DNA of 64,000 bases, taken from the NCBI GenBank assembly GCA_963576475.1, contig OY754982.1:5725201-5789200 (forward strand), written 5' to 3'. The stretch is from Molanna angustata. Lineage: Eukaryota > Arthropoda > Insecta > Trichoptera > Molannidae. Made by a program: the position numbers and the translations under genes. Of this stretch, positions 1 to 36,849 are shown piece by piece (position 1 is the first letter of the stretch; each line of letters opens with the position of its first letter). Under the pieces are notes generated by a model. That model saw only the letters and a list, made by a program, of their open reading frames with translations, ran no database searches and was not told the origin of the DNA.

Positions 1-125
1 ATTCCACAGTGATTTCCTGTTGGAATAACCACCGTTGGCTGTTCGATGATCATTCCACAGTGATTTGCTGTTGGAATATCCATCGTTGATTCTTCGATGA
101 TTATTCCACAGTGATTCTCTGTTCG
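1..125 (-). repeat. Left subterminal 51-bp repeat array (three units visible)
   Basis: ATTCCACAGTGATT starts at 1, 52 and 103, an exact 51-bp period. Each unit has ATTCCACAGTGATT, then TGTTGGAATA, then CGATGAT. Read on the minus strand this is TGTGGAATAATCATCG, the unit that recurs every 51 bp at 12,511-13,342. The array probably continues leftwards beyond the window. It lies just downstream of the stop codon of the DUF4806 gene, as the right array lies downstream of the transposase. Confidence 0.85.
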
Positions 126-287
126 CTATAGGTATAATATTTTTTTTATCATGGACAATAAAACTCAAACGATTCCAAGTAAAATTTCATTACATTTTTT
201 ATTTAAATTAATAAATACAATGTTATATTCAAATAAATCTTAACGTCTCATTATTATTCATATCTTATTAAATATTAAATTAAATTT

Positions 288-2285
288 CTAGTTGTTCACT
301 GTTGGTGAAAATGTTTTCTGACGAAGTGCTCTGCCTCCACATCTATCTTTGGTATATCTGAACCAATTAGCCACCGCATCTTGTATATCAGCATCTGTAG
401 CTGATGCCGTATTTTTATTTCTTCGAACTGCTCCTAAATGAAAAAAAAACATCATTACTTTTAGGTATTAATTTGAAAATGTTTGATTTATTTTTATTAA
501 TTGGGTATTTAAAAAAATGACGTCGCTATTATATTGTTCTCACCGGAAATCAAAGCGATACATTGAAGATTCCGTAGAGCAAATTTGTTATTTTTTCCAG
601 TCCAATTATACCTTTCTGATAACTCGTTGGTGAAAAGTTTTTCGCAAATCCGTCGTACGGTGCTTTTTTCGTTCTTGCCACCAACTAAACTCAGTTTTAA
701 TTCCTGCAAATAAAATACAAATAAGTTATTTAAGAGGTAAGATAGAACGATGTATGACAGGGTCAGAAATGAAGGCATAAGGAAAGAATGTAGGATAAAG
801 AAAGATATTATTAATAGAATGAACGTGAACACATTGAGATGGTTTGGCCACATGGGGAGAATGAATGAGGAACGCCTGACGAAGAAAATATACAGAGCGG
901 ACAGGAATGGAATGAGAGGTCGGGGCCGCCCAAGGAAGGGATGGAACGTCCATGTGAACGGTATTTTGAAAGACGGAAATGTTAGAAGCGTGAACAACAG
1001 ACGAACATGGTATAAGACGATGTATGAATGTTGTCGAGGCGATGAATGTATGCCAAGATAGAAGTAAGTGGCGTTCGGTTCTCTCTGCCTACCCGTGAGG
1101 GACATGGAGTGATAGTATGTATGTAGGTATGAAAGATTTGCATGTAAAATTAAATTATTATGTTAGGTAAAAAAATATTTGATACTTACTAAATTGGAGA
1201 AATTTTCCTTCACTTTCAACCATTCCTCAAGGTTGTGAAGTGTTTCAGTGGTATTGCACGGTAATTCAATCATCAAATTTTTTTCTATGTTTATTGTATT
1301 TGGTTCTAAGATTTGTAATATTCGATATTGGTTATTTATAACTTCATCAAGTTTTTTGTGCAAGTACGCTAAGTGTCTTGCAACTACATCATCTGAAATA
1401 ATTTAACTTAGTATTAAAATGTAGTTGTTGGAAAAAGTTCAATTTTTTAATTTATAAAATTACATGTGGCGTTCGACTTAATTTGCCTACCCTGTGAGGG
1501 ATATGGCGTGATGCTATGTATATTTCAAATTATTTTCAAGTTAGTACAATTGAATTCATACCCGACTTTGAACTATTTTCCAGATTTTTGGGAGTGTAGG
1601 ATTCTGTACCTTCCTTTGAAAAACTTCTCATATCTGTAAACAAATATTTATAAAAAAATTGTGTATGTTTATGTTCCTGTAAAATGAAGCAATTATAATT
1701 ATGTCATTATTGTGATTAAGAAAAATATGTTTTTAATCAAAATCCTTACCAGTCTTGCTTCCAGAAGGTTTTGGAAAAGGAACCGGTGAGTTGTATGTAT
1801 GAGGAGGAGAGGGATAATCGATGGTCTTCCTTTTTTTCCCCATTGAAATATTTAGTACTTCCTCATCACTACTTTCCTCACAGCTACTGTATAATAGCCT
1901 TCTGCTTGGCCTTTTTTTCCGTTTATCTTCGGGTTCTGTACACACATCGGATTCTGTTTCCGCTTGCTTCAACTTCTCTCTTGCTTTAATTATGTCACCT
2001 GAAAAAGGCATTAGATTAATAAATATTGTATGAAAATGTTGACTTCGAAAATAGGATATAATATGTGTAAATATGTAGGTATAATAAACCTGTAGTGTAA
2101 AAAGTTCTCTTTATAGAATGTAGACTCCAATTTTCACTGGGCGATTGTCCTTCACAGAGAAGTTTGTTATACAGATTGGAATTTTTACAATTCGGCCAAA
2201 ATGTATGTTTTTTAGAAGGCGTAACCCATTTGTCGTGAACTATAGCCACGTCACCTTCTTCCGAGAACTCAATAACAGCATACAT
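288..2285 (-). CDS. DUF4806-domain protein, six exons, 341 codons, second gene of the CACTA-like element
   Basis: Exons on the minus strand: 2285-2090, 1998-1750, 1633-1562, 1392-1190, 703-544, 433-288 (TAG at 290-288). All five introns are GT-AG (donors GTTTAT, GTAAGG, GTATGA, GTAAGT, GTGAGA; acceptors end CAG or TAG) and the phases add to exactly 1,026 nt. The start MYAVIEFSEEGDVAIV is the usual opening of DUF4806 proteins, with a conserved tryptophan (WP) near residue 30. Residues 91-99 and 120-123 are basic clusters (KRKKRPSRR, KKRK) suited to nuclear import, with an acidic SSDEE patch at 108-112. DUF4806 covers about residues 214-300: IELPCNTTETL, VRRICEKLFTNELSERYNWTG, then GAVRRN across the last splice. 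The domain is helical and resembles BEN-type DNA-binding domains (inference). A likely role is binding the 51-bp subterminal repeats, as TnpA does in plant En/Spm; this is not shown by the sequence. A LINE scrap sits in intron 4 and another in intron 3 without harming the frame. Confidence 0.82.
740..1135 (+). mobile_element. LINE 3'-end fragment inside intron 4 of the DUF4806 gene
   Basis: Plus-strand reading frame 750-1061 encodes a typical LINE C-terminus: WFGHMGRMNEERLTKKIY, then RGRGRPRKGW, then VNGILKDGNVRSVNNRR. The same peptide is encoded on the minus strand at 3,262-3,501, so both belong to one family. The 3' part at 1,068-1,130 (GGCGTTCGGTTCTC...GCCTACCC) is the family tail seen again at 1,463, 33,824 and 47,246. 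The 5' part of the element is missing. It lies antisense within the intron and leaves both splice sites intact. Confidence 0.8.
1463..1530 (+). repeat. LINE 3'-tail scrap in intron 3
   Basis: TGGCGTTCGACTTAATTTGC then CTACCCTGTGAGGGATATGG matches the tail of the LINE fragment at 1,068-1,130. Only the last ~65 bp are present. It lies between exon 4 (1,392) and exon 3 (1,562) of the DUF4806 gene. Confidence 0.6.
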
Positions 2286-3070
2286 TATTATATAAGAATA
2301 TTTTGAGAATTATATAATCTGTAAGAAAAAAAACACAATTCTAAATTTAATTGTATAAATTTCTAAATTTAATTTTATAAATTATATTTGAAATAGTTAA
2401 TAAGATACCTAATCAATCTATATCGTGTTTAAATAAATAAATAATAAAAAATCACCCACATGGTTTATGGAGTGTTTTTTTTTATTATTTTATTTACTTA
2501 ATTCAAATAAATATTTCCTGATATTGCTTAGGCTTAATTAAACATTAAAAAAATATATTTAATAATAACAACGAATTTATAAACAAAAATAAAACAAATA
2601 AAATACTTACAGAAAGAAAAATCAGCACAAGCAACAACTTTACTATTATATTCTAAAATAACTTAATAAATATATTGTTTACTATAGTTATGATAATGTT
2701 CTAGTAGCACTTGTATGTGTTAGCAGGCCTGAGATATTTTAAGGAATGACGTAAATGTTTTGGGTATAGAACAGAGAATAGACTAGAAGTAGTAAAATAT
2801 GTTAAACACATGTTAAAACCATCCAGACATTGAAGCCCCTTGAGTCGCCCTGAAGATTAATTTATGATCGCCCATAAATGTTCAGGGCCAAAACACCTCC
2901 AATATTATTTGATCTTTCTAATAAACTTTTCATGATAAATCAGATAATTGATTGTATATAAAAATAAATTCTTATGTTAAAAATTCAGATTGGCAAAATT
3001 ATAGTCGATTCTATCAAAAAATGGTGATCAGGTGATCAGATAAATATAATAAATAAAACAACAATTATTA
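2286..3070. other. AT-rich spacer upstream of the DUF4806 gene
   Basis: Very AT-rich with short reading frames only. It should contain the promoter of the minus-strand DUF4806 gene, but I recognise no core motif that I would defend. No repeat of known type seen. Confidence 0.5.
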
Positions 3071-3086
3071 TTTTACTTATCAATCC

Positions 3087-3120
3087 GACGGTTCTATGAG
3101 ATCCATTGGGAAGAACCGTC
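3087..3120. repeat. Small hairpin
   Basis: GACGGTTCT (3087-3095) and AGAACCGTC (3112-3120) form a perfect 9-bp inverted repeat with a 16-nt loop. It lies just past the 3' end of the minus-strand LINE copy that follows and may be part of that element's end; no other role is evident. Confidence 0.5.
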
Positions 3121-3229
3121 AAAAAACCCAATGGCCACTTTTTTGTTTAGTTACATATTTATTATTCGAATAAATTGTAACAATAAAATAAGTATCAATA
3201 TAACATAATTTTGACACGACGATCAAATA

Positions 3230-4622
3230 TCCATACCCATCCATACCATTACGCCATTTCCCTATTTGAGGTAGGCAGACTGAGCCGAACGCCAGACTCC
3301 TCTCTCTTGACATACATTCCTCGCTTCATTCACGTCCATACATCGTCTCATACACGCTCTTCTATTATTCTTACTTCTAACATCACCATCTTTCAAAATC
3401 CCATTTATGTGATCGTGCCAACTTTTTCTTGGCCGACCTCTACTTTTCGTTCCTCTTTTATCAGACTTGTATACTTTTTTTGTCAGACGGTCATCACTCA
3501 TTCTTTATATGTGGCCGAACCACCTTAGGGCATCTTACTTACGATATTTCTTTCAATCATACATTCTCGTCTTATATCCTCATTTCTTATTCTATCATAC
3601 ATCGTTTTACCACACATTCGTCTTAGTGACCTCATTTCAACCGCATTAATTCTACTTTCATGCGTCTTCTGCCATGTCCATCTCTCATTAGCATATATTA
3701 GAGTCGGTGCGACGATACCATTGTGTACCGCGAGCTTTGCTTACCTCGAAATAATTGGGTCAGCCATTACCGGTCTTAATGCACCATTCACTCTATTACC
3801 AGCCGTTACTCTCCTTTCAATATCTTTTTCCAATCTTCCATCACGCTGAAACATGCTTCCTAAGTATAAATATTCATCCACTTGTTCTTATTGTATCTCC
3901 ACTCGTATCTCGCATTTTGTTCGTTTTTCGCTCTTCTCAAAAACCATCACTTTAGATTTAGTTGCATTCATTCTCAATCCATTTTGCATGCATCCATCGA
4001 ATACTATTTTAACCAAACATTCCAAGTCTTCCACGCTTTCAGCCATTAATACTTTGTCATCCGCATACATTAGATCACATACAGTCACACCTTCCAGTTT
4101 CAGCCCAATGTTCTCATTCTTTAGTGCTCTCACACAGTAGTCAATGTATAGATTAAAGAGCCTCGGTGATAGTACGCACCCTTGCTTCATTCCCATATTG
4201 AGAGAGTTTTCAATTCTCACACAGGCTTGGCTTTCCTCATATAGAGATGATATTGCCCCTATCAGCCTGCTACCCGCTCCATACACTGATAGCACGTTCC
4301 AGAGTTTTTCACGGTCTACTTTGTCATAGGCCTTTTCCAGGTCTATGAAAGCGCAGAAAAGCTTCTGGTTTTTTGCCAGAACCTTTTCAGTCGTCATTCG
4401 AAGGGAAAAAATTTGGTCGGTGCATCCTCTACCTCCAACAAACGCTCCTTGTGCATCCCATACCTTGCTTGCTGTAGCCTTTCTCAACTTTTGATCTAGT
4501 ATCCTTGCATACAATTTTCCAACTGAACTCAGCAGACTGATAGCTCGGTAGTTCTTGCAGTCTAGTTTTGACCCTTTCTTAAAGAGGGGCACAATCACTG
4601 CCCTGTAAATAGAGCGGATCAA
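3230..4622 (-). mobile_element. RTE-like LINE fragment, reverse transcriptase half, minus strand
   Basis: Minus frame 4622-3888 (about 244 residues) is a reverse transcriptase: AVIVPLFKKGSKLDCKNYRA, CAFIDLEKAYDKVDREKLW, MKQGCVLSPRLFNLYID and the catalytic box LMYADDKVLM, which is intact. After a frame break the C-terminus appears at 3501-3262 (DDRLTKKVY, SRGRPRKSW, NGILKDGDVRS). The N-terminal endonuclease half is missing; the first codons match exactly where another copy at 15,432-16,884 stops. The upstream border at about 4,612 joins a Helitron-like repeat through the shared string ATTTACAG. Type assigned from resemblance to arthropod RTE/craniofacial-development-protein-2-like elements. 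It lies between the two genes of the CACTA-like element and is probably dead. Confidence 0.85.
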
Positions 4623-4662
4623 AAGTTATAAGGGGTGGAGGACACACAGACACACACACCCT

Positions 4663-4744
<82 letters not shown>

Positions 4745-4938
4745 GAGTAAATCCGTATATGGAACATATATGCTGCGAAGCCTCTAATTTGGTGTTTTTT
4801 GACTTCAAAGTTGGAAAAACCATGAAAAATATAGACCCTGCATACAATCGTGTTCCTTCATACACACGTCTTGGATTTTAACTGCCTCTTCATTCACAAG
4901 AATTTCATTCTCTTGAACGAATCGACAGTTGGATAAAT
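4612..4938 (-). mobile_element. Helitron-like repeat, copy A, 5' end
   Basis: On the minus strand: TATCCAACTGTCGATTCG at 4,934 downward, a hairpin of AAGAGAATG/CATTCTCTT type, a segment with ACTTTGAAGTC, then the CA tract and TTATAACTTTTGATCC. The same order occurs at 32,518-33,132 and 39,014-40,001. The copy stops at about 4,612 where LINE sequence begins. Family evidence is given under the full-length copy at 39,014-40,001. Confidence 0.65.
4640..4741. repeat. (CA)n microsatellite
   Basis: Nearly pure CA dinucleotides interrupted by CCCT at about 4,668 and 4,700. It occupies the same place as the GT-rich stretch found inside other copies of the Helitron-like repeat (17,270; 28,230; 39,210), so it is an expanded internal part of that repeat. 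Confidence 0.9.
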
Positions 4939-5173
4939 ACATTTTGCCCAAGGCGGTCCTGGTATTGAGCCATAAATGACCAACTTGGACTCTTCTTCTT
5001 GCAATGATACAAATATTTCATTAAATAATGAATATCTACGTGAAATAACCTGACACGTTTTTCGAATGACCAGGCTTGGCTTGGCTCGTTTTTTAAAGAT
5101 ATCGATTGCATTAGAACTTGAACCACATGTTCGTTTGTAAGTTGTTGATACATAATGCAGTGCAGTGCAGTGC

Positions 5174-5311
5174 AAAGTTTTAATCGGGAGTCAAATATAT
5201 TTGTATGATATTTGTTTTATCTCAATAGAGACGAAGATGGAATATACATTTTTAAGATGGAATATCGTCTCTATTGAGATAAAAATTTGTCATAAAAACA
5301 AAGTTTTAATA
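5174..5311. repeat. Short inverted-repeat element between 11-bp direct repeats
   Basis: Perfect 17-bp arms TATCTCAATAGAGACGA (5218-5234) and its complement (5265-5281). AAAGTTTTAAT flanks at 5174-5184 and 5301-5311 may be a target duplication but is AT-rich. Related sequence (CTCAATAGAGACGAAGTT and ACTCCCGACAGGG) recurs at 59,400-59,490 and 62,220-62,440, so it is a dispersed family. No coding capacity. Confidence 0.55.
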
Positions 5312-5754
5312 GTAGAATTAGTGATAGAATCTTACATAATATGCTTAATAGAATGAAAAGAACGACAAATTATATACATAGAATGAAGAGAATGACAAAT
5401 TATATAAAATGTAGAACATAACAAAATAATTTTTTTTATAGAATGAAGAGAATGACAAAAAAAATATAAAGAATGTAGAACATAAGATCCAATATGTGAA
5501 ACGAAACTTATGACGGACAGTCTGACCGAAATTCCACCGGACTGCGAGACAAAAACCATATTATTTGGAAAAATTAATATCTGGCACAAATTAAATAGAA
5601 ACAATTGGATATTTGTCCAGTCTTACAAGACTTAAGTGACTATTGACTGTAAAAACAAAAAACTAGAAGAATTCGATATAATTGGTACCAACTGGTATAT
5701 TAACTCTTAATAAACAATGTAAAGTTTATACAAGATTACTACAGTTTATGAATG

Positions 5755-6475
5755 AATGAATGAATGAATGAATAATATATTTCCAACAGTATAAATATTA
5801 CAAAGGAACAAAATACAATTTAATTTATACCTAATTACAGTTTTACAATATATTTTTTTCACACATTTGGAAATTTAACTGCCTCGCTAGACATAGTCTG
5901 TTCTGAGGCAGTACTAGTTTAAAATTGCTATGGCTACTCTGCGATCATATGATTTGTATTCTTTTTTTTTCTTCACATATTCCATTCACTTAGAACATCA
6001 AACAACCAGGATGAAAAACTCTAAAACTCTATCTCAAAAAATCTACCGAGTACCGAGTACCGAGGCAGATCCTTCTCTTCCAATCTGTTTCAGCCAACGA
6101 GTAACGAGGTCTTTGAAGTTTTTCCCATCATGCGATATGTTTTGTTCAATATCTATCATTATTTTATTATAGAGTCTTGGTGCCAAAAAACTATATTGAC
6201 GCTGCGCATGTGTTGTTCTTGGTTGTGGCGGTCTTAGCTGATGTCTGTTTCTAGTGCCATGTATCAATATATAGTCCGGTTGAAACTCAGCAGTGTTTTT
6301 ATGCAAATGAGACAGTATCAGTCTCATATAGAGCTGTCTAACATCCAAAAATCCACTGTCTATATATATTTGTTCTGTGGGGTATCTTTTAGGTCTTCTG
6401 TGCATTACCTTTATTATTGATTTTTGTGTTATGACTGATAACTCTCTACTCAGAATCAATAGCATTCTTTTTTAA
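5755..6475 (-). mobile_element. LINE 3'-end fragment, minus strand, with (TTCA)n tail
   Basis: Minus frame 6465-6043 encodes a LINE C-terminus (TQKSIIKVMHRRPKRYPTEQ, FLDVRQLYMRLILSHLHKN, then LAPRLYNKIM). It matches the C-terminus of the plus-strand LINE at 59,940-61,725 (AQKSLLRVMCRKPYRYPSSQ), so both are one Jockey-like family. The 3' UTR motif GCCTCGCTAG...TCTGTTCTGAGGCAG is also shared. It ends in six TGAA repeats at 5,755-5,775, a plausible 3' tail. The reverse transcriptase core is absent. Confidence 0.8.
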
Positions 6476-7400
6476 ATACCTCTCTTGTGTTGGAGAAGAT
6501 ATCAACTATGTTGGAGTTGCTGTGACTATTGTAAATACGGCACATGCGATACAATGGATTAAAAAATGATATGTTAGATTTACAGAACCGTATGTGAAAA
6601 ATATTTGGGTTTCTTATTGATTTAATATTGACGTTATATTTCAATTCATTGACCAGCTGTGTGTCCATCACGTTATTTATTATATTAAATAAACATGCCA
6701 GTCCGTCACTTTTCGTCGAGTACTTAGCTTAGAAATATTAAAAAAAATCAATCTCTGATTATATGTTAACATGTAACGACCTATACCGGCTCAATAACAC
6801 AGAATTTTCACAAACTTCCTTTGGACAGATTCTAACATTTCAGTGTATACATTATAATGTGGACACCATACAGGTGACCCGTATTCCAGAACACTTCTTA
6901 CTAATGGTTGATAAAGATATTTTAAGCTTTGAGTATTTGTGAAGTTTACAGTGAGTCGAGTTATGAACCCTAGCATCTTCAGTGATTTTTGAACAGTATT
7001 TTCAATATGTGGGCGAAAAGTGAGTTGGGAGTCAAAAGTCATTCCAAGATCTTTATTAATGACATTTACACGTTTGAGAGGTTTATCAGAGAGTGAATAT
7101 ACATTTACAATTTTCTTATGATTTCTAGTAAATGTGATTACGTGACATTTATCAATGTGTAGCTCCATTTCGTTTTTAATGCACCACAAATTTAAAGTGT
7201 CGAGGTCTTTTTGTAATGTTAGACGGTTGTAGGGGTTTTCAATTTGGAAAAGAATATATTTATTCGGATCCTTAAAAGACGGCCGGGTAGTATGAAGTTG
7301 GAAACACAGAATTCGGAAGATCGTTCCACACTCGGGCTGTTGTATAAAGGAGTTCGAGAAGCGACTGGTTCGCATATGTTGAAGGTTTACTACTAGTAGT
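6476..7400 (-). mobile_element. Second LINE fragment, reverse transcriptase C-terminal part, minus strand
   Basis: Minus frame 7375-6791 reads NLWCIKNEMELHIDKC, VNVINKDLGMTFDSQLTFRP, LVRSVLEYGSPVWCPHYNVY, the post-catalytic part of a Jockey-like reverse transcriptase. Frame 6671-6456 adds the extreme C-terminus (SNISFFNPLYRMCRIYN). Both match the LINE at 13,865-15,435. The catalytic palm is lost and there are frame breaks, so it is dead. It directly abuts the previous LINE fragment, giving two families back to back. Confidence 0.8.
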
Positions 7401-7426
7401 AAGTTGTACGAGTTTTACTTAGTAAT

Positions 7427-8030
7427 TTTTATTTAGATGTAAAAAAATAACATATAAATTAATACATCTAGTTTAAACAATAAATAATATACAAATAAAA
7501 ATACTGTGAATGGGTGTTGTGGAGGAGGGTCCAAGGATGCAAGTTCTTCTGGGCAATTCCCGTGGTAGTATCTATCAACTTTGCGTCTTTGTTCTAGTGA
7601 TTGCAATCCATCAGTCAGTGATAGATTGCAATCAAACGTTCGGCAGAGCATTTTTTATTAAAATTTCTAGCTACGCCACTGTATTGGTTATATCCTATCA
7701 TATAAACTGCCAACCCCAAATTCTTCGAAAACAATATAAGGTGAAGAATGTATAGAGTCAACATATGTTTTTTTTTACTCTCCACTACTATGTAATAGTG
7801 GAGAGTCATGATTTCAAAATATTTTAGCGTATTTTCTTACATCAACTCCTCATAGGGTATCTTCTAGAGAGTGCACAGTTTGAACTTCGTCGTGATGTGT
7901 TTGTATGTATGGCGTACGGCGTATCCTTTTTGTAGTAGAAGTAGTAGTCATTTTTAATTAGATGTAAAAAAATAACATACTTACATCTAGTTTAAAAAAT
8001 AAATAATATACAAATAAAACATTATGAAAC
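7427..8030. repeat. Pair of ~80-bp direct repeats with a TAGATGTA hairpin
   Basis: 7427-7507 and 7951-8030 are near-identical: TTAGATGTAAAAAAATAACA, then CATCTAGTTTAAA, then AATAAATAATATACAAATAA. Each holds a hairpin (TAGATGTA/TACATCTA at 7434-7441 and 7463-7470; TAGATGTAA/TTACATCTA at 7959-7967 and 7981-7989). A similar hairpin is at 30,484-30,520. The 440 bp between them is unclassified apart from the terminal repeat at 7,765-7,930. Possibly LINE 3' ends. Confidence 0.55.
7765..7930. repeat. End of a dispersed inverted-repeat family (related to 37,430, 47,850 and 56,335)
   Basis: CTCTCCACTA...TAGTGGAGAG hairpin at 7780-7806, then TCATGATTTCAAAAT, then ACTTCGTCGTGATGTGTTTG at about 7,883-7,905 and GGCGTACGGCGTA. 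The same parts in the same order occur at 47,850-48,050. It is a single arm here. Confidence 0.5.
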
Positions 8031-8809
8031 AGTTTGAAGTAAGAGTGTAACATTAACTAAATTTATGGACATCATGTAAAACTATGGCGAAAATTAGTAG
8101 TTTTTAATAATTATGTACCCAGCCCACGAAAGGTGACAAGACTTGCTGTTTCTTTTATGTTTAATGGTAAACTATTAAACATTTTAAGACCTTTATAGTA
8201 TAAATAAATAAATAATTAGAAATCATCATAAATCATAATATATCAAAACTTTAATATGCGCTCACGGTCTGAAGAAACGATTTTGTTTCAATTTTAAATA
8301 CAAAAGATATACTTTTCGACCAACCTTCAATAAATCTATGGTCTGTAATGTTCAGTGTGTAATTTCATATTTGTATGAAAACTGTACCTACCTACATAAC
8401 ACAGAAGTGAAATGACTTTTGTGTGATAAAGTTGAGTTATATAATTCACATTGTAACGAAAATCACCAAATAAAAATTGTTTATTTAGGAACACATTTAT
8501 TTTACTGCGCTGGCCGATTTACTAATGATATTAATAACAATTAAGCACAACAAATAATAACACTCAATTATTATTATTACCATTATACATTTCCTCAAAA
8601 GAATTAGCAGAGCAATGTGTAAATTGTAAATTATTTAAAAGAGCAAAATAAAATGCAACAAACGCATCATCAAGCTTTCAATTGTGAATAGTTCACCCAT
8701 CCAGGATCTGAGGAGGTCTCTATACTAACTACCTAACAACCCTACTGATTCCCGAATATTAACGTTTAAAGAATCTTTAACGATTCTACATGTATTTATT
8801 ATTACCGTT
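8031..8809. other. AT-rich stretch without recognised features
   Basis: No reading frame of note and no repeat that I can match within the window. A few AATAAATAAATAA runs (8,200) suggest old retroposon tails. Confidence 0.4.
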
Positions 8810-9206
8810 TTTTGCATTTTTGTTATTTAATTTTTCGATAAATCTATAATTTCTAAATTACGGATTAACGATTTTGGAATAATGCCAGTGGCTGAAATAA
8901 TGAACGGTAATATTATTATTTTACGAGAATGCCAAAGTCTTTTAATCTCGTTACCTAAAGCGGTATATTTTCTAATTTTTTCATAAAAGTTTTTATAATA
9001 TTACTAGAATTTGGAATAGCCACGTCGCAAATATATGTTATTTTTTTAATTTTATCATAAATTATTATATCGGGTCTGTTATGTTGAATTGACCGGTCAG
9101 TTAATATTGTTTTATCGCAATAAAGCAAAATATTATTATTTTCTAAAAATGAAATCGGATCATATTCATGTTTATACACTAATATTAGACATATTTGTTT
9201 AGACAT
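8810..9206 (-). mobile_element. Remnant of a LINE C-terminal endonuclease-like domain
   Basis: Minus frame 9206-8955 contains LTDRSIQHNRPDIIIYDK then ITYICDVAIPNSSNI, and after a frameshift at about 8,960 continues YTALGNEIKRLWHSRKI and PFIISATGIIPKSL. The NRPDI...DK...DVAIP pattern is the C-terminal nuclease-like region found after the reverse transcriptase in many animal LINEs of R2-like architecture (family knowledge). The polymerase part is missing. Dead fragment inside the spacer of the CACTA-like element. Confidence 0.7.
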
Positions 9207-9979
9207 TTAAATATTTATTTTCACTTGATTTATTTTAACACTTATTTTTACGTCGTTTTTCATTTTTCAAATTAAACTACATAATCTTTTGTTTTTTTCT
9301 GGTTTGTTCCAAATATTTAAATATAAAAATTATATTCCATCATAACGATAATACTACGCAAGTATCTTCTCAATTTCGTATCAATATTATATATTTTTTA
9401 CTTTACATCTTCTGGATTTTTTAAATATACATTTGTGTAGGAAGCAAATAGAAATGTACCAAAATGGATTTAGGAATTGTCAACCTATAAAAAAGTAAAA
9501 ATGTATACTTACATAGTTTAGTGTTGGCCACAACCCACACGTTTAACAAAATAAAGTTCTTGCCAGAATTTGTAATTTTTCATTGTAACGAGTGTTTAAG
9601 GTTGTGTAAGTATATACATACGCACACTTAATAGTCTTTTGAATACCCTCGTAACTAAATTTTATAAATAAGGTGTTTTTGCAAATATATTGTTTGTGAA
9701 CATTTTATAAAGTAAGTGAACATAATATTTGTATTTTAATAAGTACAATAATATTGTATACAATAATATACCAAAATTCATCACATTATTTTTTTTACAT
9801 ACTATAATATTGCTAATTTATTTTATTTTAATTATTTAGTAAGTTTATCATTTTAATTTTTTAGTAAGTTTGTCATTTTAATTCCCCATTATTAGAATAT
9901 TAATGTTCTAATCATTTATTTTAGATCATAATAATCACACGCACGCCACTTAAGCGACTTTATACAAGAGATTATAACA
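9207..9979 (+). other. Spacer 5' of the transposase gene, possible leader intron
   Basis: AT-rich. A good splice acceptor (TTTATTTTAG) ends at 9,924, 55 bp before the start codon, so an untranslated first exon further upstream is possible. GTTGGCCACAACCCACACG at 9,524 resembles a piece of the repeat at 37,430 and 56,850. Confidence 0.4.
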
Positions 9980-12049
9980 ATGGAATCACACCAGTTAAAT
10001 ACAAAAAAATACAAGCATTGCTTAAACGGAGTATCCAAAAGGACTTATTTTCGTGAAATTGCAAAAATTTCTTCAGTCATCAATGACGAGCTTCAATATT
10101 CCAACCAACTTAGAAGTATTTCTTCCGTTAGTTCAGAGGATCCTATCCGTACCATTAATTTTCATACTGATACAGAACGTACAAGAATTAACGAGAGTAA
10201 TACTTTATTAAATATCAGCGACAGTGTGTTTCACGATTTCTCAAGTGATTCAGACTCACAAGCTGACTCACACAATAATGTAATATCAGAACAATTAATA
10301 TCATGGCATAGACAGCATAATATAACCCAAAAAGCTCTATCACATCTTTTGCAAATTTTGAGACCACATATTACTTGTTTACCTCTTGACAGTCGTACTC
10401 TGTTGCAAACACCGCGTACTATTAATTCAATAACGTGTTGCGAAGGTAGTTATGTGTATTTTGGAGTACAAAAATACTTATTACAAAGAATTAATTCGGG
10501 ACTTAGACCATCTAACTACCCGTTTATAAAAAAACTCGTTAAAGAATATCACCCAAGAAATCTTTTGACAATTTCAATAAATGTAGATGGTTTGCCTTTA
10601 CACTCAAGTACAAGCAAATATTTTTGGCCAATTTTAGGAAGAATGGATCAGTCTGTAAATAAAAATCCTTTTGTAATTGCTTTATACTATGGAGAAACAA
10701 AACCAGCAGACTCAGATGTTTTTTTATACCCTTTTGTTGAAGAATTATCAAAATTAGAAAAATTGGGATTGACTGCTAACAACAATAAATATTTCATTCG
10801 CGTAAGTTGCATTATTGCTGATGCTCCTGCAAGAGCTTTTGTAAAATGTATTATGTCACATAATTCTTTACATGGGTGCGAAAAATGTTGTCAAGAAGGT
10901 ATTTATCAAGGAAGAACGACATGGAAGTATAATTCAACAATGCTTCAAAGAAATGACAACTCTTTTGCCAATTTAGAATATAGTGAACACCAACGAAGCA
11001 GATCAATATTATCAAAACTTCAAATTGGATTAGTTACTCAAGTCCCTTTGGATTATATGCATTTAGTGTGTCTTGGAGTAATGAAAAGATTAATAAGAAT
11101 CTGGGTTGACAAGGGAATAAAAAAGTGTAAACTGAGTAGAAATAATAAAAACATTATATCCGACAGATTGCTTCGAATTGCAAAAAAACATGTTCCATCA
11201 GAATTGTCACGAAAATCACGACCCTTGAAAGATTTTAAATACTGGAAAGCTACAGAGTTTCGTTCTTTTTTACTATATTATGGACCTTCAGTACTTTATG
11301 GTTTGCTTCCTAATCACTTGTACGAACATTTTCTTGTTTTACACTGTGGAATATATATACTAACATCTAGTGAATTAAGCAACGATACTGCATGGATAAA
11401 CTATGCAAATAAATTAATTCATTGTTTTGTAAAAGATCTTCCCGACTTGTATTGCAAAGAGTTGTTGATTTACAATTTTCATAATATTTTGCACTTAGCT
11501 AATGATGTTAAAAATTATGGATGTTTAGACAATTTCTCTGCTTTTCCATTTGAGAATTTTATGTGTAAAATTAAACGTTTGGTTCATGGACCTAATAATC
11601 CTTTACAACAAGTAACTAAAAGACTATACGAGCAAAACAATTTAGATTCTTTATATTCATTAAATTCCGAACCTAAAAAAGAGATAAAAAAACATGGTAT
11701 AATAACATCATTTGTACTTCCCAATTTTTCTAATTGTGTTGCTGGTATCTCTTTAAAAGACTCATGTTTTGTAACTAAAGATTGTAATATCATTATAATA
11801 AAAGAAATAAGCAGAACAAAAAAAATGTGTTCATATGATTTAAAATGTGACATATTTGAACAAAAGAGAGATTACTTTGAGCTGCCCTTGAAAAGTAGTA
11901 AATTAGGAATTTTTGAAGTATTCTCACGCAAAAGTGGTTTTAGTTACTCTTCTTCTCAACTTTATAAAAAATGTTTATTGCTACCTAATTTTAAGAATAA
12001 AAATACCTTTTTATGTGTTCCATACACTAATATGAATTTATTTCATTAA
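9980..12049 (+). CDS. tnp2-type (Transposase_21, CACTA) transposase, 689 residues, intact
   Basis: One uninterrupted frame from ATG 9,980 to TAA 12,049. It should cut and join DNA at the ends of its own element in the nucleus. Family marks in order: a Ser/Asp-rich linker at 80-100; NVDGLPLHSSTSKYFWPIL (201-219) with candidate catalytic Asp203; DSDVFLYPFVEEL (244-256), the usual acidic helix; VSCIIADAPARAF (275-287) with candidate Asp281; a Cys cluster HGCEKCCQ (298-305); PLDYMHLVCLGVMKRLIRIW (356-375), the most recognisable signature; NFHNILHLANDV (499-510); and FPFENFMCKIKRLV (522-535) with Glu525 as the likely third acidic residue. Assigning which acids are catalytic is inference from the D-D-E pattern of the family. 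The start is taken because the next upstream frame is closed and the N-terminus looks like those of hydra and aphid relatives. No introns are needed. No stop or frameshift, unlike every LINE around it. Confidence 0.85.
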   Translation: MESHQLNTKKYKHCLNGVSKRTYFREIAKISSVINDELQYSNQLRSISSVSSEDPIRTINFHTDTERTRINESNTLLNISDSVFHDFSSDSDSQADSHNNVISEQLISWHRQHNITQKALSHLLQILRPHITCLPLDSRTLLQTPRTINSITCCEGSYVYFGVQKYLLQRINSGLRPSNYPFIKKLVKEYHPRNLLTISINVDGLPLHSSTSKYFWPILGRMDQSVNKNPFVIALYYGETKPADSDVFLYPFVEELSKLEKLGLTANNNKYFIRVSCIIADAPARAFVKCIMSHNSLHGCEKCCQEGIYQGRTTWKYNSTMLQRNDNSFANLEYSEHQRSRSILSKLQIGLVTQVPLDYMHLVCLGVMKRLIRIWVDKGIKKCKLSRNNKNIISDRLLRIAKKHVPSELSRKSRPLKDFKYWKATEFRSFLLYYGPSVLYGLLPNHLYEHFLVLHCGIYILTSSELSNDTAWINYANKLIHCFVKDLPDLYCKELLIYNFHNILHLANDVKNYGCLDNFSAFPFENFMCKIKRLVHGPNNPLQQVTKRLYEQNNLDSLYSLNSEPKKEIKKHGIITSFVLPNFSNCVAGISLKDSCFVTKDCNIIIIKEISRTKKMCSYDLKCDIFEQKRDYFELPLKSSKLGIFEVFSRKSGFSYSSSQLYKKCLLLPNFKNKNTFLCVPYTNMNLFH

Positions 12050-12510
12050 ACTAGGTTAAGAATAAAAAAAAATGTGCGAAAAAAACATATATGTACGTAC
12101 CTATATTAAAGAAATATGAGAAGGAAATTCACGTTTTTTTTATTTGACAAAAAATATACCTAAATGAAAATTAATAATTGCATATATTTATTACTCATTG
12201 AACTACTATTTTTTCAAGTTTTTCAAAAAGAGTTTATAATGTGGTACTTATTAATATTGCTTGAAAAATATTCTTATAATATTTAAAATACAAAACACGA
12301 AAGAAAAAAAACAGTGTAAAATACTACATATGAAATAAAAACATACAACCTTAAAATAAAAACAAAATAAAACATAGAAAACTTTTAAAAGGCTAAACGT
12401 TTATCAAAATTTAAACTCTTTCTTTATTTCCTATACATCTGAATAAAAAGTAGAATCTTGAAACTTTCTAATACAATAAGAAAATAAAATCAATATTATG
12501 GAAACATCAC
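12050..12510. other. 3' flank of the transposase gene
   Basis: AT-rich. AATAAAAAA at 12,060 lies 11 bp past the stop and could serve as a polyadenylation signal; others follow at 12,350-12,370. No other feature. Confidence 0.45.
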
Positions 12511-13342
12511 TGAGAAATAATCATCAGGCTGCCGATAGTGAAGATTCTGATATCAATCACTGACGGTGGATATACCCCCAATGATTATCTATGGAATAAT
12601 CGTCGGAGCTCCAACGTTGATTATTCTATCAGTGAGTTACTGTGGAATAATCATCGGGGATCTGACAGTAGGTATTTCCACGGTGAATAAATGTGGAATA
12701 ATCGTCGGCTGCCGACTGTGGATCTTCTAACAATGAATCATTGTGGAATAGACATCGGTATGCCGACAACGGATTTTCTAACAGTGAATCATTGTGGAAT
12801 AAAGATCGATCTGCCGACAGTGGATATTCTGACAATGAATCATTGTGGAATAGACATCGGTCTGCCGACGGTGGGTGTTCTAACAGTAAATCACTGTGGA
12901 ATAATTGTCGGGGATCCGACAGTAGGTATTCACACGGTGAATAAATGTGGAATAATCGTCGGCTGCCGACTGTGGATATTGTAACATTGAATTACTGTGG
13001 AATAATCATCGGGCTGCCGACTGTGTATATTCTCATTGTGGAATAGACATCGATCTGCAGACGGTAGATATTATAACAATGAATCATTGTGGAGTAGACA
13101 TCGATCTGCCGACGGTATATATTCTGACAATGAATCATTGTGGAATAGACATCGGTCTGCCGACGGTGGGTGTTCTAACAGTAAATCACTGTGGAATAAT
13201 TGTCGGGGATCCGACAGTAGGTATTCACACGGTGAATAAATGTGGAATAATCATCGGACGACCGATGGTGGGATTTGTCAATGTGAAGCACTATGGAATA
13301 ATTGTCGAACAGCCGACGGTGGATATTCCTAAAGTGAAATAC
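12511..13342 (+). repeat. Right subterminal 51-bp repeat array, about 16 units
   Basis: TGTGGAATA (or TATGGAATA) starts at 12590, 12641, 12692, 12742, 12793, 12844, 12895, 12946, 12996, 13037, 13088, 13139, 13190, 13241 and 13292, a 51-bp period with one 10-bp deletion. Degenerate units extend back to about 12,511. Most units carry a short palindrome of the type GTCGG-CTG-CCGAC followed by a TGG and AATCATTG block. A block of three units at 12,844-12,995 is repeated almost exactly at 13,139-13,290, so units have been copied in groups. The array is the reverse complement of the one at 1-125. Short reading frames across it are artefacts, because 51 is a multiple of three. Confidence 0.9.
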
Positions 13343-13369
13343 ACCGTCGGTGCCGTTCGTTGGGGATGA

Positions 13370-13860
13370 TATGTTTTGCACTATTGCCGATCACTAGCTG
13401 ACCTTATATTTTTCAATATTTGGCCGATGGTCATATCCACAGTGAATGACTGTGGGAACATATACACCGTCGCCACCCGACTATTACTACACGTTCATTA
13501 ATTACTAAGTTGGTAACGGTAACAAAGTATCGGTATGTGACGGTTAAAATATTACGAAATAATCGGTCGATTCAGTGTCGGCAAAACGGCCTAAAAATTG
13601 ATGGGTGAATAACTGTTGAGCCAATGTCGGCAAATGATAGTTGACCGTTATAGCCGACCGTCGAGTTCTGACATATAAAAAGCGGTCGACGGAACGTCGG
13701 GAAAAGGTACCGAAAATTGGTTGGCAAATAACAGTTGAAGCAACGTCGGCAAACTGACGTCGGCAAAAAATAGTTGGGCCCATTGCAATATATCATTTAA
13801 GAGCCGATCGTCGGTTTGCCCACAGAGCCGACGTAAAAAAGCGGTTGGACCAACGAAGTG
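13370..13860 (+). repeat. Right terminal region of the CACTA-like element with GTCGGCAAA motifs
   Basis: GC content rises and GTCGGCAAA or GTCGGGAAAA recurs at about 13,577, 13,627, 13,698, 13,746 and 13,761, with AGTTG and CGACCGT nearby, unlike the 51-bp unit before it. The stretch ends ...GCGGTTGGACCAACGAAGTG at 13,860, that is CACTTCGTTGGTCCAACC on the minus strand. CACTA elements start with CACT; taking this as the terminus is inference, since the matching left end is outside the window. Confidence 0.55.
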
Positions 13861-13864
13861 TGCT

Positions 13865-15435
13865 ATTAGGGATAATCACTTCAAACAGCTACTCAGTCCG
13901 TCCCAACATGGTTTCATCAATGGGCGTTCTACAACGAGTAACCTGCTGGAATATGTTGACTATCTTAAGTTGACTGTTGGTGGACGCAAACAGGTAGACA
14001 CAATCTATACTGATTTCCGTAAGGCGTTTGATAAGGTTGATCATGGTATACTCTATAAAAAGTTAGAAGCGACAGGAATTCACGGCAATCTTCTAAGATG
14101 GCTGAAATCCTACATAAGTGGAAGAATCCAGACTGTATGTGTGAATGGTTTTGAGTCTTCGCCTTCCACTGTAACGTCGGGTGTCCCCCAGGGTTCCCAC
14201 TTAGGCCCATTATTGTTTAATATTTTCATAAATGATCTCCCGGCCATCCTTAGTTGTGATTGTTTGTTATACGCAGACGACCTAAAGATCTTTAAGAACA
14301 TTAATAACTTCAATGACTGTCTACAATTACAATCCAACCTTGATGCTATCAACACGTGGTGCGAATCCAATAAAATGGAATTAAACATCGAAAAATGTTT
14401 AATTATAGGATTCTCCAGAAAACGCACAACAATTCATTTCGACTATAAGCTGGGCAATATTCCATTGAAAAGGGTTGACTCAATACGGGATCTTGGGGTA
14501 ATATTTGACTCTGGACTGACGTTCAAGTGTCATATAGACGACATTGTGGCTCGCGCAAGCCGAACAGCAGGGTTCGTCTTGAGAACAGCAAAACCTTTCA
14601 AGAGAAATGAAAGTCTGATCACCCTGTTCCGTTCACTGGTGCAGAGCATACTTGAATACAACTCATGTGTTTGGAGTCCTCACTATGGAGTTGACATCGA
14701 CCCGATAGAATCTGTCCAAAAATATTTTTTAAGAGTCATCACAAATAGAGCAGGGCTGTGTAATAGGTTGAGGACTTACGATGAACGTTTAGACTATTTC
14801 GGAACTACTAAACTCGAGACTAGACGACAAATACATGACTTTACTATACTTCACAAAATTGTTAATGGTATCATAGATTCGAGACTTTTACAATACATAC
14901 AATTTAACATTCCTAGAAGATCGTTGAGATTTGCCAATACCTTTCATGTCAGCATGCTTCGTACTAGCTTTATGTATTACAGTCCTATACCGAGAATGTG
15001 TAGACAGTATAATGAGGTGACAAGGGAGTATCCTGATCTTGACGTGTTTGCCGATTCGCTGTCTGCTTTTAAGAAAAAAGTTAAGTTACGCCTGTTGGTT
15101 TAGAATGTCTCCGTGAAATTTAAATTTAAATTGAAATTAAAATTTACTTGATGTTTGAATGCTATTGCATGTTCTGTTAAGGATTTTTTTTTCATTTTTT
15201 ACTGTTTCTTAAAATGTCTAATTGTTGTTTAATGGATGTAGTATATATATATATATATATGTGTAATTAATGCTTTAATTTAATAATAGCTCATGAAATT
15301 TATTAATGTTGTGTGCATCCATTATTGGAAGTCCAGCATACTCATAGATAAAAACAAATATTTTGACATGGAAGTTATAAGCTGGATTTCTGTTGATGCG
15401 CCTTTTTAAATTAATAAAAAATAAAATAAAATAAA
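13865..15435 (+). mobile_element. Jockey-like LINE, 5'-truncated, with open reverse transcriptase C-terminal 400 residues
   Basis: An open frame runs from the 5' border (about 13,860) to the stop at 15,103 without an initiating Met: SPSQHGFINGRSTTSNLLEY, IYTDFRKAFDKVDHGILYKK, VTSGVPQGSHLGPLLFNIFI, the catalytic LLYADDLKIF, then the thumb SRTAGFVLRTAKPF and LEYNSCVWSPHYG and C-terminus RSLRFANTFHV. All reverse transcriptase boxes from finger 2 on are intact. The 3' UTR (15,104-15,410) contains GTGCATCC...GTCCAGCA and ends in an A-rich tail AATAAAATAAAATAAAG at 15,419-15,435. The endonuclease and gag-like parts are missing. Its 5' border abuts the presumed end of the CACTA-like element, and its 3' border cuts a minus-strand LINE. 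No target duplication was found. Confidence 0.88.
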
Positions 15436-20133: not shown

Positions 20134-23100
20134 TTACTTGGCCATTGGCTGAAAAATTAAAATACAATCATAAATATTATATATTTTGATACATTATTAT
20201 CTAAGAACATAATAAAAAAAAATCAATAGTATTATGGAACTGTCGGCCGCTTTAACTTAGGTACCTACATCAAATATCAAATAGTTGAGTATGTGCAGTA
20301 CTATGCCGAAAGCTGTCATTGTTCTCGATGTTAGTTGCCAATAAAATTATACATATAGTTCAAAGTCTCTAAATGTGAATGAAATAGAATAAATACAAAA
20401 ATTCAAGAGAGCTGTAAAACATGTTGATGATTAGTTAAATCTACTAATTACTGAGTTGATGCGCAGTGCGCTGTAAGTTTAGTGAAAAGAAATTTTGCAC
20501 TGAGCTCATCTAAAAATTTAGTTTTTGTTAAGGAACCTTGGTGAAATTAACATTACCTAAGTATTTGGTCAAGGAACCTTGGTGAAAACGAGACTACCTA
20601 ATTGTTTTGTTAACGAACCTTAGTGAAATTGACAGTATAACCTAAGTGTTTTGTTAAGCAACCTTGATGAAATTGATAGTACCTAATTGTTTTGTTAAGG
20701 AACCTTAGTGAAATTGACAGTACCTAAGTGTTTTGTTAAGGAACCTTGATGAAATTGATAGTACCTAATTGTTTTGTTAAGGAACCTTAGTGAAATTGAC
20801 AGTACCTAAGTGTTTTGTTAAGGAACCTTGATGAAATTGATAGTACCTAATTGTTTTGTTAAGGAACCTTAGTGAAATTGACAGTACCTAAGTGTTTTGT
20901 AAAACCAAACTTTACAAAACACTTAGCAAGATTCGAACCCGCTTTATAAACTTCAGATATGCTTTTCCGAATATTATCCTTCAAATTTTGATCTCAATAT
21001 GAGTTAATTTGAGCATTATACCTATAGCGCATGATACTGTTTAATCATTTCAATCAATTTTTCTTTTTCATAGCAATAGTCAAGTAACAGTCTCGGTCTC
21101 TTTTCCCTATCTCTCTCGCGCAGTGAACAACTAACCTTATATACAGAACTGGGTATGGAATCCAGGATTGGTTATATTACAGATATACATCCTGATACAT
21201 TCAAGTTGGGCAGATGTGCCTGTTCTGTGAGTGAATAGGAATTTGTCTCAACTGGGAATAATGCATTAAATAAAATTGTGTTTTTCTCTAAAATTGAACA
21301 CCACTCACATCACGATTTTCTCCAGCAATTTCTTTTCTGAAACTGGACACCACGATGATGAAGTACATCTGCACAACTGCAAATAAAAAAAAAAGTATTT
21401 AGTGTTATATAATTAATGTCAAATAGATTGACAAATAATTTTTCTATATATTGCATTTTATAATATAATATAAAATTTTTATAGACAAATTAACTATTGT
21501 TGCATCTCTCAACAATAAATAATTGATATTTTTTATTGAGTACCATAAACTCTAGTGGCAAAAATAATTATTTATGATTATCTTCTAAATTGTGTATAGT
21601 TTTCAATTAAAGTTATAACCAAAATTATAACCTCTGTATATTTTATAAATAATGTGTGTACTTACGGATTACAATTGCTCCAATAACCAAACCACTCAAG
21701 CCTGCTCCGATTGCACCAGCAACCAAGAACATTATTGATTGTATGGCGGTTGAAATGCCATAGATAATTACTCCGACCATAGCCACTACTACCCAAATGT
21801 TGACATATTTTGGGAGACTCTAAAACAAAAAAATACATTATTTTTTTAAATGAAAAAATAATAATAGGCCTCGAGTAAGTCGATATACAGCACAATTTTT
21901 GTGAAAATGCACCTCAATAGCGCTATATATTCTAAGAAAACTAATGAATTACAATCATCCACATATATATTTACAAACGTATATCAAATTTTAACAAAGG
22001 CTTAAAAGCAAGCAAACCATATTATAATATTATAACATTTATGCCATGAAGCTGTCTAGGATGATAATGTTATAAAGTAGGTATGGGCCAACTTTAGAGT
22101 TGCAGGCTACAATTTTAGGAAAAAATAAAGACGCTGGCAGTAGATAATCGGAGTACGGGGTGGCGCAAAAGTATAACCTCATAGAAACCTTATATTGCCT
22201 CGAATGGGTATACCTTATTCTCTATGTGGCTACACTTGAGCCATTGTTTTAGGTAGTGAAAAATGTGAGAGTATATAAATACATCTATGATAACTCTAGT
22301 AGTGGTATTAACATATTGGAGTGTGTTTATATATTGGTTTGGAAGATAATCATAGTGGTGGCTTCCATTTGCATGACCATGAGTGACGTCTGAATAAAAT
22401 CAACCATGTTGTAGAAAGTTTGTAGGATGTAGAAATGTCTTCAATAAGTAAAAGATAATGATATTTTTTTATCTTGCTAATACAATTAATTAGTAAAAAT
22501 TACCCTATTGGCACCGATAATCAACATCATCGCGATGATTAAGTGAAAGACGAAAATCAAGATTCCGATAACACCAGACCCAACTGACATCTCTGTACCA
22601 TCGTGAGACTTTGATCCTGATCCCGTCACAAGGGCTGAAATGACACCGATGATTCCAAGAACAGAAAAAACCTGAAACAAAATTAATGAAACTGAAAATT
22701 CCAATAATCTATATAATATATAAAAATGGATTTACGTATATTTGTTTGTTCGCGATGAACTCCTAAACCAACCATCCGATTGCGATGAAACTTTGGGAAT
22801 TTTTTCAGCTCATTCAGGAGAAGGTTTATGCATTATAATTTATTTATTTATTTATTCGATATCTAAAAAATGGTATTGAATTGATATTTAGTGGGTTTAT
22901 TTAGCAAAAATCCTATATACCCATACATAAAATGGTATCTATATATATAAAAATGGATTTACGTATATTATAAAATTTTCTTCTTCTTCTTCATCATCGG
23001 GTATTAGGTCATTTTACCTATAAAGGTGGACTATCCTGGGAACCGTTCATCCAATTGCAATGAAACTTTGACGAATTGTCGAGCCTATGCCCGGAATGGT

Positions 23101-31217: not shown

Positions 31218-32177
31218 TAATACTACGACCGATGACGGACTAGGTGTACTACACGAAGCGTGACACAGCCCTTAAAATATTAGTATCATAACTTTTTAAT
31301 CGTATACCATTTAATTTGTGGTTTAAAAAAAATATTTGGTGCGCAATCACGGGGCACGTCCTCGCCTGATACCAATTTGCGATCGCTGCGCTAGTTTACC
31401 GATTTCTTCGACTGGGAACACAGGTTAGTTGCAAGAAATCGTCATTTGCCAAAAACTTGGCACTTTTACGGGATGCAAGGAAATGCTTATTATTTACGAA
31501 GTAAAAATCATTTAACGTTATCATTTAATTTTAGTTAAGTTATATTGCAACATGTATGTACCTAGGTACCTACGTGTTATCTAATGAGCACATTATTCAA
31601 TATGAGATACCCACAAAAAACATATGTACTTATATAATAATGTAATATGAAAAGCAACCTTGAACAAATGGAAATACGATTTTAATCATGGAGATCTATG
31701 CCGACACTTTGATAGTTTTAAAACATCTGTATAAAGCAGGGGTTAGTAACATTTTATTTAAAAGAATATAACAGCAAAAAAATATATAATTTTTTTTATT
31801 TATTTTAATTCTTTACACTTGTTTTTTTTATTTTTTTATGTGCGACCGACACTGGGAACATACCCGTGTCGGAGCGAGTATCAAAATGATAATTTTTATA
31901 GTTCTAATTATAATTCCAACATGTATATGTTAAATGTATTATTAATACATTAAATGTATTCTGACATTTTAATTAAACGGTTATATTTAAAGAGTTTAAT
32001 GTTTAAACTAAATAAAATATCTAACATGACGAGTATCTAAGGTTTAGATGAATCAGGTATAATTCCGACTAATAAATGATCATAAACATTATAACGTTGT
32101 CTGTCTGTATTTTGATCTCTCTCAAGTTGGCCACACGTACTGCTTTGCCTGACATTCAATACAGCTGTAATATGTCC
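31218..32177. other. AT-rich stretch with a decayed SINE family 1 copy
   Basis: 31,365-31,500 retains GGGAACACAGGTTAGTTGCA, AGAAATCGTCATTTGCC and GGATGCAAGGAAATGCTTAT, the 3' half of SINE family 1. The rest has no recognisable feature. Confidence 0.5.
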
Positions 32178-32515
32178 GCAACACACACAAATATCAATGG
32201 CTTATTATGATAATACCAAACACACACAAACATCAATGGTTTATTATGATAATACCAAACACACACAAACATCAATGGTTTATTATGATAATACCAAACA
32301 CACACAAATATTAATGACTTATTATGATAATACCAAACACACACAAACATCAATGGTTTATTATGATAATACCAAACACACACAAACATCAATGGTTTAT
32401 TATGATAATACCAAACACACACAAATATTAATGACTTATTATGATAATACCAAACACACACAAACATCAATGGTTTATTATGATAATACCAAACACACAC
32501 AAACATCAATGGAAT
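32178..32515 (+). repeat. 39-bp minisatellite with AAB higher-order pattern
   Basis: About 8.5 units of ACACACAAACATCAATGG, then TTTATTATGATAATACCAAA. Every third unit instead reads AAATATTAATGACTTATT, so the real repeat is a 117-bp trimer. The open frames on both strands (YYDNTKHTQTSMV; YYHNKPLMFVCVW) only reflect a period divisible by three. Confidence 0.93.
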
Positions 32516-32517
32516 GG

Positions 32518-33132
32518 AGTCGATTTGTTCAAGAGAACTTTGTTCTCTTAACATATCGACAATGTTTCAAGCCAGGATACGCGAGAATTGTATGTAGGGT
32601 CTATATTTTTCACGGCTTTTCCAAATTTGAAGTAAAAAAAACACCAACTTAGAGGCTTCACAGCATATATGTTCTATGAGTAGAACATTTAGTGTGTCTG
32701 TCTGTCCCCCCCGTCCCCCCCCCCCCTTATAACTTTTGATCCGCTCAATTTACAGAGCTCAAAATTCAGAATATATAAATAGTTATAGGCCTACAAAACT
32801 TTTATACTCAGAATTTTGAATTTTTATTTTAGTCAGGCGTTATCAACTTTTGAATTTTTACTTTATTTTTCCATATATCTCAAAAACCATAAAAGCTAGA
32901 ACGCTGAAAATTATTATTTTTAAAAAGTTCCAGAAATCTCAAACATTTTTTTTATAATATTATGTGTTTAACTGCCTATATTTCCAAAGTTTTTAAAAAT
33001 ATTGAAAAAAGCCGAAACACCCCAACTACAATTTTCATAAAAATTGAATTTAGTTACGACATTGCTTCATACAATTTGAATGGCAGTCGCCTATACACAA
33101 TATCTAAGAAGACTTAATAGTTTGATACTGGG
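32518..33132 (+). mobile_element. Helitron-like repeat, copy D, 3' truncated
   Basis: Starts GTCGATTTGTTCAAGAGAAC with the hairpin AAGAGAAC/GTTCTCTT, continues through a C12 run (32,705-32,726), TTATAACTTTTGATCCGCTC and AACACCCCAACTACA, and stops within TTTGATACT at 33,130. It directly follows the minisatellite. Confidence 0.7.
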
Positions 33133-34072: not shown

Positions 34073-34184
34073 TGTAAATATACAGTCTTTTTTAATCACG
34101 TTTTAATTTAATATAATAACGGTTAAAAAAATCGATCGATGTAGATATATCATAAAATGATCCAAGATAAACAAAGATCAAATA

Positions 34185-36175: not shown

Positions 36176-36849
36176 TAATATGTATAACCATATAAACGAT
36201 TTATAAATATTGATGTATAATTTTCGCCAAACATCTTGAAGGAGCTCCCGGTTGCGCAAAGCGTGAATTTGTGTCTTTTTACTTCGTTGGTTTACATGCA
36301 AATCACCCACCTTCTCGACTAAAAGTTCAAGATGTTTTTCTACAACTTTACGTACATAATTATATTAGTTTTATCGAATTTTTAATTTTCCCACTGGCAA
36401 CACTGTAGAAGTACAAGTACATTTTTTTCATGTGCCCACACCTCTGACACCACTACACAAATGACATAATATTATTTATAATAAGTTTACTCCTATATTA
36501 TCTGTGTTTATAATTAATGGAAATATGTCGCATCATATAATCATTTAATTAACTAAACAAAAAACGTTTCCGAAAAGTTTAAATTATCCGCGAAAGTGTG
36601 TGTTTTTGAGCAAAGCGTATCCGTAATTGAAAAAGGTTAGTATTTGTTTAATTTAAGAAGCACGATATATTTTAAACGATTCCATTAAAATCATATTTTA
36701 TATTGAAAAAGTTCAGTTTAGTATTGTAAAAGTATTTACTTTTTAGTGAAATATGCAATTTTAACCAACTGAACTTTAATCCTAGGAAATTTAACGATCC
36801 TAATATTTATTTTGAGTTAGGTTAGGTTCAAATGACACATACATGTTTT
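36176..36849. other. AT-rich spacer
   Basis: No gene or repeat recognised. GTTAGGTTAGGTT at 36,816 is too short to be a telomeric TTAGG array. Confidence 0.4.

Follow-up and report, generated by a model that had tools for sequence, protein, structure and literature searches.

Positions 1-13,860 of a 64,000-nt stretch of the Molanna angustata genome (GCA_963576475.1, contig OY754982.1, 5,725,201-5,789,200; the whole stretch is called the window here) appear to hold most of an animal CACTA/EnSpm-like transposon, in which, on a reading that we somewhat favour, a protein with a DUF4806 domain serves as a TNPA-like repeat-binding partner of the transposase. From left to right the element shows 51-bp repeats, the DUF4806 gene, an AT-rich stretch, the transposase open reading frame, a 51-bp array and an end region. 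The two genes lie between the arrays, look intact and point outwards, the DUF4806 gene on the minus strand at the left and the transposase gene on the plus strand at the right; both gene models are predictions from the sequence, made without transcript evidence. The left array is cut at window base 1, so that of the element's two ends the window shows the right one alone. Because the inverted arrays flank both genes and the same pairing recurs in two other tnp2 branches, the DUF4806 gene very probably belongs to the element.

The left and right arrays are related far beyond chance. Both consist of 51-bp units. The left one (1-123, minus strand) shows 2.4 of them and runs past the left edge of the window; its orientation is opposite to that of the right one (12562-13344, plus strand). 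Tandem Repeats Finder detected the 51-bp period on both sides, with 2.4 copies at 1-123 and, at the right, a stretch at 12622-13257 that overlapping rows extend to 13338. Fifteen units were anchored in the right array from 12591 to 13293, spaced 50-51 bp apart with one exception of 41 bp. Local alignment of the two arrays scored 66 in the inverted and 33 in the direct orientation, compared with a best of 19 among 300 mononucleotide shuffles and of 18 among 56 tiles from the rest of the window on both strands. Moreover, blastn of the window against itself aligned 12780-12902 with 123-1 at 76% identity (E = 1.2e-18), and the repeat listing (20 pairs) contains eight inverted pairs of 51-bp-array arms, 71-82% complementary, along with two further short inverted pairs. 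Of the 51 bases in the sole full left unit, 43 agree with the consensus of the right array, whereas no more than 28 did so in any of 99,898 51-mers from 14001-64000, both strands. Thus the first-pass annotation, which had described inverted 51-bp subterminal arrays bracketing two outward-pointing genes, is borne out by the alignment and by the intact look of both genes. G+C content is 0.41-0.44 in the arrays and end region versus 0.20-0.33 in the element body. Dyad symmetry of the 51-bp unit was considered and rejected (best 8/12, matched by 291 of 1,000 shuffles; a less good consensus led to the same outcome).

The DUF4806 gene (288-2285, minus strand) is modelled with six coding exons (2285-2090, 1998-1750, 1633-1562, 1392-1190, 703-544 and 433-288, the last including the stop codon) that encode 341 amino acids. 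All introns are GT..AG and the reading frame has no internal stop; the first donor (GTTTAT) is weak by eye. The left array ends 165 bp from the stop codon of this gene. The Pfam model for DUF4806 (PF16064) matched amino acids 214-287 with 31.6 bits, above the Pfam cutoff of 25, and the earlier claim that the second gene is a spliced DUF4806 gene therefore stands. A protein search at E ≤ 1e-3 returned two relatives (P0121 and P0122), of which P0121 is 49% identical over 47% of the query and is itself found by the Pfam DUF4806 model. The other, the Ciona intestinalis protein LOC144745831 (P0122), is 32% identical over 98% of the query and has in common with the window protein the N-terminal MYAVIEF..W..WP region, the stretch KRKKRP and, at the C terminus, the signature R..KDR.GGR; the Pfam DUF4806 model gave no match to it. 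The profile of the BEN DNA-binding domain matched P0121 weakly (13.9 bits), and two BEN-DNA complexes stand at ranks 2 and 8 of 30 for DUF4806, a weak likeness that gives no more than a faint hint of DNA binding. Foldseek with the DUF4806 model gave no match at E ≤ 0.001, a sequence search of the PDB with the DUF4806 profile gave none, and an NCBIfam search gave no usable match. Two inverted repeat copies (743-1131 and 3232-3609, 70% identity) occur in this part of the element, the first within the fourth intron of the gene (1189-704).

The right gene (9980-12049, plus strand) is a single open reading frame of 689 amino acids and, to judge from its relatives, sequence signature and modelled fold, encodes an animal CACTA/EnSpm-type (tnp2-related) DDE transposase, as had been proposed. 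It has 1,841 relatives at E ≤ 1e-3, with identities down to 46-53% over most of the protein. Residues D203, D281, C300, C303, H501, H505 and E525 are invariant in 22 of 22 aligned proteins, and D203, D281 and E525 are the putative catalytic residues on the basis of motif and predicted fold. The C(2)C and H(3-4)H signature between the second D and the last E, defined for CACTA/EnSpm (CMC) transposases in PMC12730594, is present in the form C(2)C..H(3)H. The predicted structure has a RAG1/Transib-like fold, with Transib transposase and RAG1 being only ∼10-11% identical to the window protein over aligned residues and differing from this system in ends and partner. The window transposase has no Pfam match of its own, and at E ≤ 0.01 the 22 aligned members matched Transposase_21 (7), DUF1258 (9) and DUF4218 (6). 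A PDB sequence search with the tnp2 profile gave two matches only, at chance level (E 0.73). No relatives were confirmed among viral contigs (92 pattern matches) or prokaryote contigs (23), as expected for an animal element.

Pairing of DUF4806 with this type of transposase was surveyed in the 120 listed relatives of the transposase, and DUF4806 sequence is joined upstream of the transposase in two of them, one from the springtail Allacma fusca (P0105) and one from a metagenome (P0065). The springtail sequence is a partial predicted protein of 943 amino acids, with ∼300 DUF4806-type residues followed by the tnp2 transposase. It was recovered by the window DUF4806 protein alone with 38.6 bits, and a profile that combined the window protein with P0121 and P0122 and left the springtail sequence out scored it at 46.9 bits (E 2.1e-13; best of 2,000 shuffled proteins, 7.1 bits); Pfam's DUF4806 model did not report it up to E = 1. 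The metagenomic protein begins with MARWLRNSTDRNGGRKLR, which resembles the C-terminal signature of DUF4806 proteins. Against three DUF4806 tails it scored 52, 48 and 56, where the shuffle maxima were 47, 45 and 48 (5,000 each) and the best of 2,519 other stretches from relatives was 40; as it was chosen for being conspicuous among 120 N-termini, the shuffle test is not fully independent, and against the whole DUF4806 profile it scored just 8.6 bits (E 0.099). The N-terminal extension of P0067 is not claimed as a third DUF4806 tail, 33, 114 and 133 of 2,000 shuffles reaching its scores. A quick tree, with SH-aLRT branch support only, was built from 112 sequences (the window and 111 of the 120 relatives). 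The transposases of the window, springtail and metagenome lie in separate branches of it; three label changes are needed, forced by starred branches, and shuffling the labels is not informative with only three rows (500/500). Hence the pairing is either old or arose more than once, which favours function over accident. Either join may be an artefact of gene prediction, which would still imply adjacency. No DUF4806 was found at E ≤ 10 in proteins of about 566-1802 amino acids among 2,634 candidates, a weak test that says little, because the springtail protein, with its 38.6 bits, is estimated to miss the cutoff too.

Beyond the right array, the right end region (13360-13860, plus strand) is ∼500 bp long, carries repeated GTCGG/CCGAC motifs and ends in CGAAGTG; the sequence up to 13,860 is CCAACGAAGTG, which reads CACTTCG inward, and the next bases are TGC. 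CCGA and TCGG are frequent in the right array and the end region, at 14-16 per kb; elsewhere (element body, flank, remainder of the window) they occur at 0.9-2.3 per kb, and neither occurs in the 123 visible bases of the left array. Termini of CACTA/EnSpm elements have the form 5'-CAC..GTG-3' with inverted repeats, and insertion gives target-site duplications of 2-3 bp; the right end, the only one within the window, reads ..GTG. The flank, outside the element, is the reverse transcriptase of a long interspersed nuclear element (LINE; 13861-15103, plus strand) with an RVT_1 match. Its frame is open from 13,862 and the match begins at the sixth codon, at profile position 33 of 205, thus in mid-domain at the putative element end, which fits insertion into a LINE. 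In the 121 codons of its upstream continuation the frame is broken by 8 stops, of which the closest is ∼41 codons off, and no reverse-transcriptase sequence is recognisable by eye in the frame upstream of 13,862. It is plausible on the sequence that the element inserted into a LINE at 13,860.

The transposase, its signature, the arrays and the visible end would place the element with CACTA/EnSpm, of which inverted subterminal arrays on both sides are a typical, not universal, feature that is present here. In the proposed mechanism, the tnp2-type DDE transposase would cut and join the ends through its RAG1/Transib-like catalytic core, the element-encoded DUF4806 protein would use its C-terminal domain to bind the subterminal 51-bp repeats, and the repeat-bound protein would gather the ends for the transposase or regulate the element, in the manner of TNPA in plant En/Spm. 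We put the odds of repeat binding by the DUF4806 protein a little above even. The element resembles plant En/Spm (TNPD/tnp2 plus TNPA) in its tnp2-type transposase, its inverted subterminal arrays and an unrelated second protein that could bind them. The parallel with En/Spm drawn in the first-pass annotation thus holds in its logic and fails in gene organisation: both En/Spm proteins come from one alternatively spliced unit, whereas the window has two genes on opposite strands. Plant En/Spm also ends in CACTA, unlike the CACTTCG seen here, and its second protein is not DUF4806. That the second protein is unlike any plant one is less odd than the annotation implied, since even among plant CACTA elements the proteins that bind the repeats have little similarity to one another. 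Among animal elements, the TRC/EnSpm group (SmTRC1 and kin, PMC1636069) is alike in its hosts and its Transposase_21-type transposase; these are reported to have CCC ends and 2-bp duplications, and the available text mentions no DUF4806 gene and lacks the word 'subterminal'. Two-gene PIF/Harbinger elements (the 'Nuwa' families named in PMC12730594) likewise combine a transposase with a separate DNA-binding-type protein (Myb/SANT), but differ in transposase superfamily and partner domain. Searches of the literature, as far as it was accessible, brought up no paper that links DUF4806 with a CACTA element; a Repbase description may still exist.

Several observations weigh against a DUF4806 repeat binder encoded by the element. 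By these tests 118 of the 120 listed relatives show no DUF4806, a count based on individual predicted proteins, often from contigs only a few kb long, in which a separate second gene would not show up. In both proteins with the pairing, DUF4806 stands ahead of the transposase and shares its strand, where the window has a divergent pair. A single copy is visible, and its two genes stand ∼7.7 kb apart, on either side of AT-rich sequence that contains reverse-transcriptase fragments. The left terminus lies beyond the window, as do the left flank and any target-site duplication, and a 5′-truncated LINE that landed at 13,860 may have given the same picture at the right end.

The DUF4806 protein may instead be a true part of the element with another job, such as guiding the transposase into the nucleus or onto chromatin, or countering host silencing, with the transposase itself reading the arrays. 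We consider this possible and the strongest of the alternatives, but plant CACTA elements with subterminal arrays require a dedicated second protein that binds the repeats, and among open reading frames of at least 80 amino acids between the arrays no gene other than the two was recognised, except reverse-transcriptase pieces. It is rather unlikely that the element is a one-gene CACTA-like transposon which by chance acquired a host DUF4806 gene or came to be joined to one. Such a passenger would fit the single copy, the distance between the genes and the many relatives that show no DUF4806; the recurrence of the pairing in two other tnp2 branches and a gene that stays open across six exons inside inverted arrays speak against it. 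Least probable is that the left array belongs to a different copy or a rearranged remnant and the DUF4806 gene is an ordinary host gene next to the transposon, for although the left terminus is out of view, the array runs opposite to the right one, matches its consensus at 43 of 51 bases in the full unit and ends just 165 bp from the DUF4806 stop codon.

If the DUF4806 protein is the repeat-binding partner, a domain of unknown function would gain a role, and the use of a second protein devoted to the terminal arrays would extend to animal CACTA-like elements. An explanation would also be at hand for two Hydra genomes in which DUF4806 appears, together with many transposase domains, in a table of expanded domains, counted 69 and 54 times versus 6, 0, 1, 0 and 0 in five other species of that table. 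In a beetle, DUF4806 is reported as enriched in species-specific genes; neither source, in its accessible text, treats a DUF4806 gene carried by a transposon. Whether the DUF4806 protein binds the 51-bp unit of its own element thereby becomes a direct, testable question.

Other features were noted in the window. Between the two genes lie two reverse-transcriptase fragments on the minus strand, one at 3888-4622 (RVT_1 match, 113.9 bits) and one at 6791-7375, which lacks an RVT_1 Pfam match and aligns at the DNA level with the right-flank reverse transcriptase (70% over 70 nt). A near-perfect palindrome at 49890-50188, with two 149-nt arms that are 91% complementary and 1 nt apart, is possibly a foldback element. 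A long array at 34169-36234 has repeats in a 9/18-bp register and minus-strand open frames rich in Ser, Pro, Arg and Phe, and is probably a minisatellite. Further minisatellites occur at 20514-20926 (∼41-bp units) and 32141-32569 (∼39-bp units), the latter with an open frame kept.
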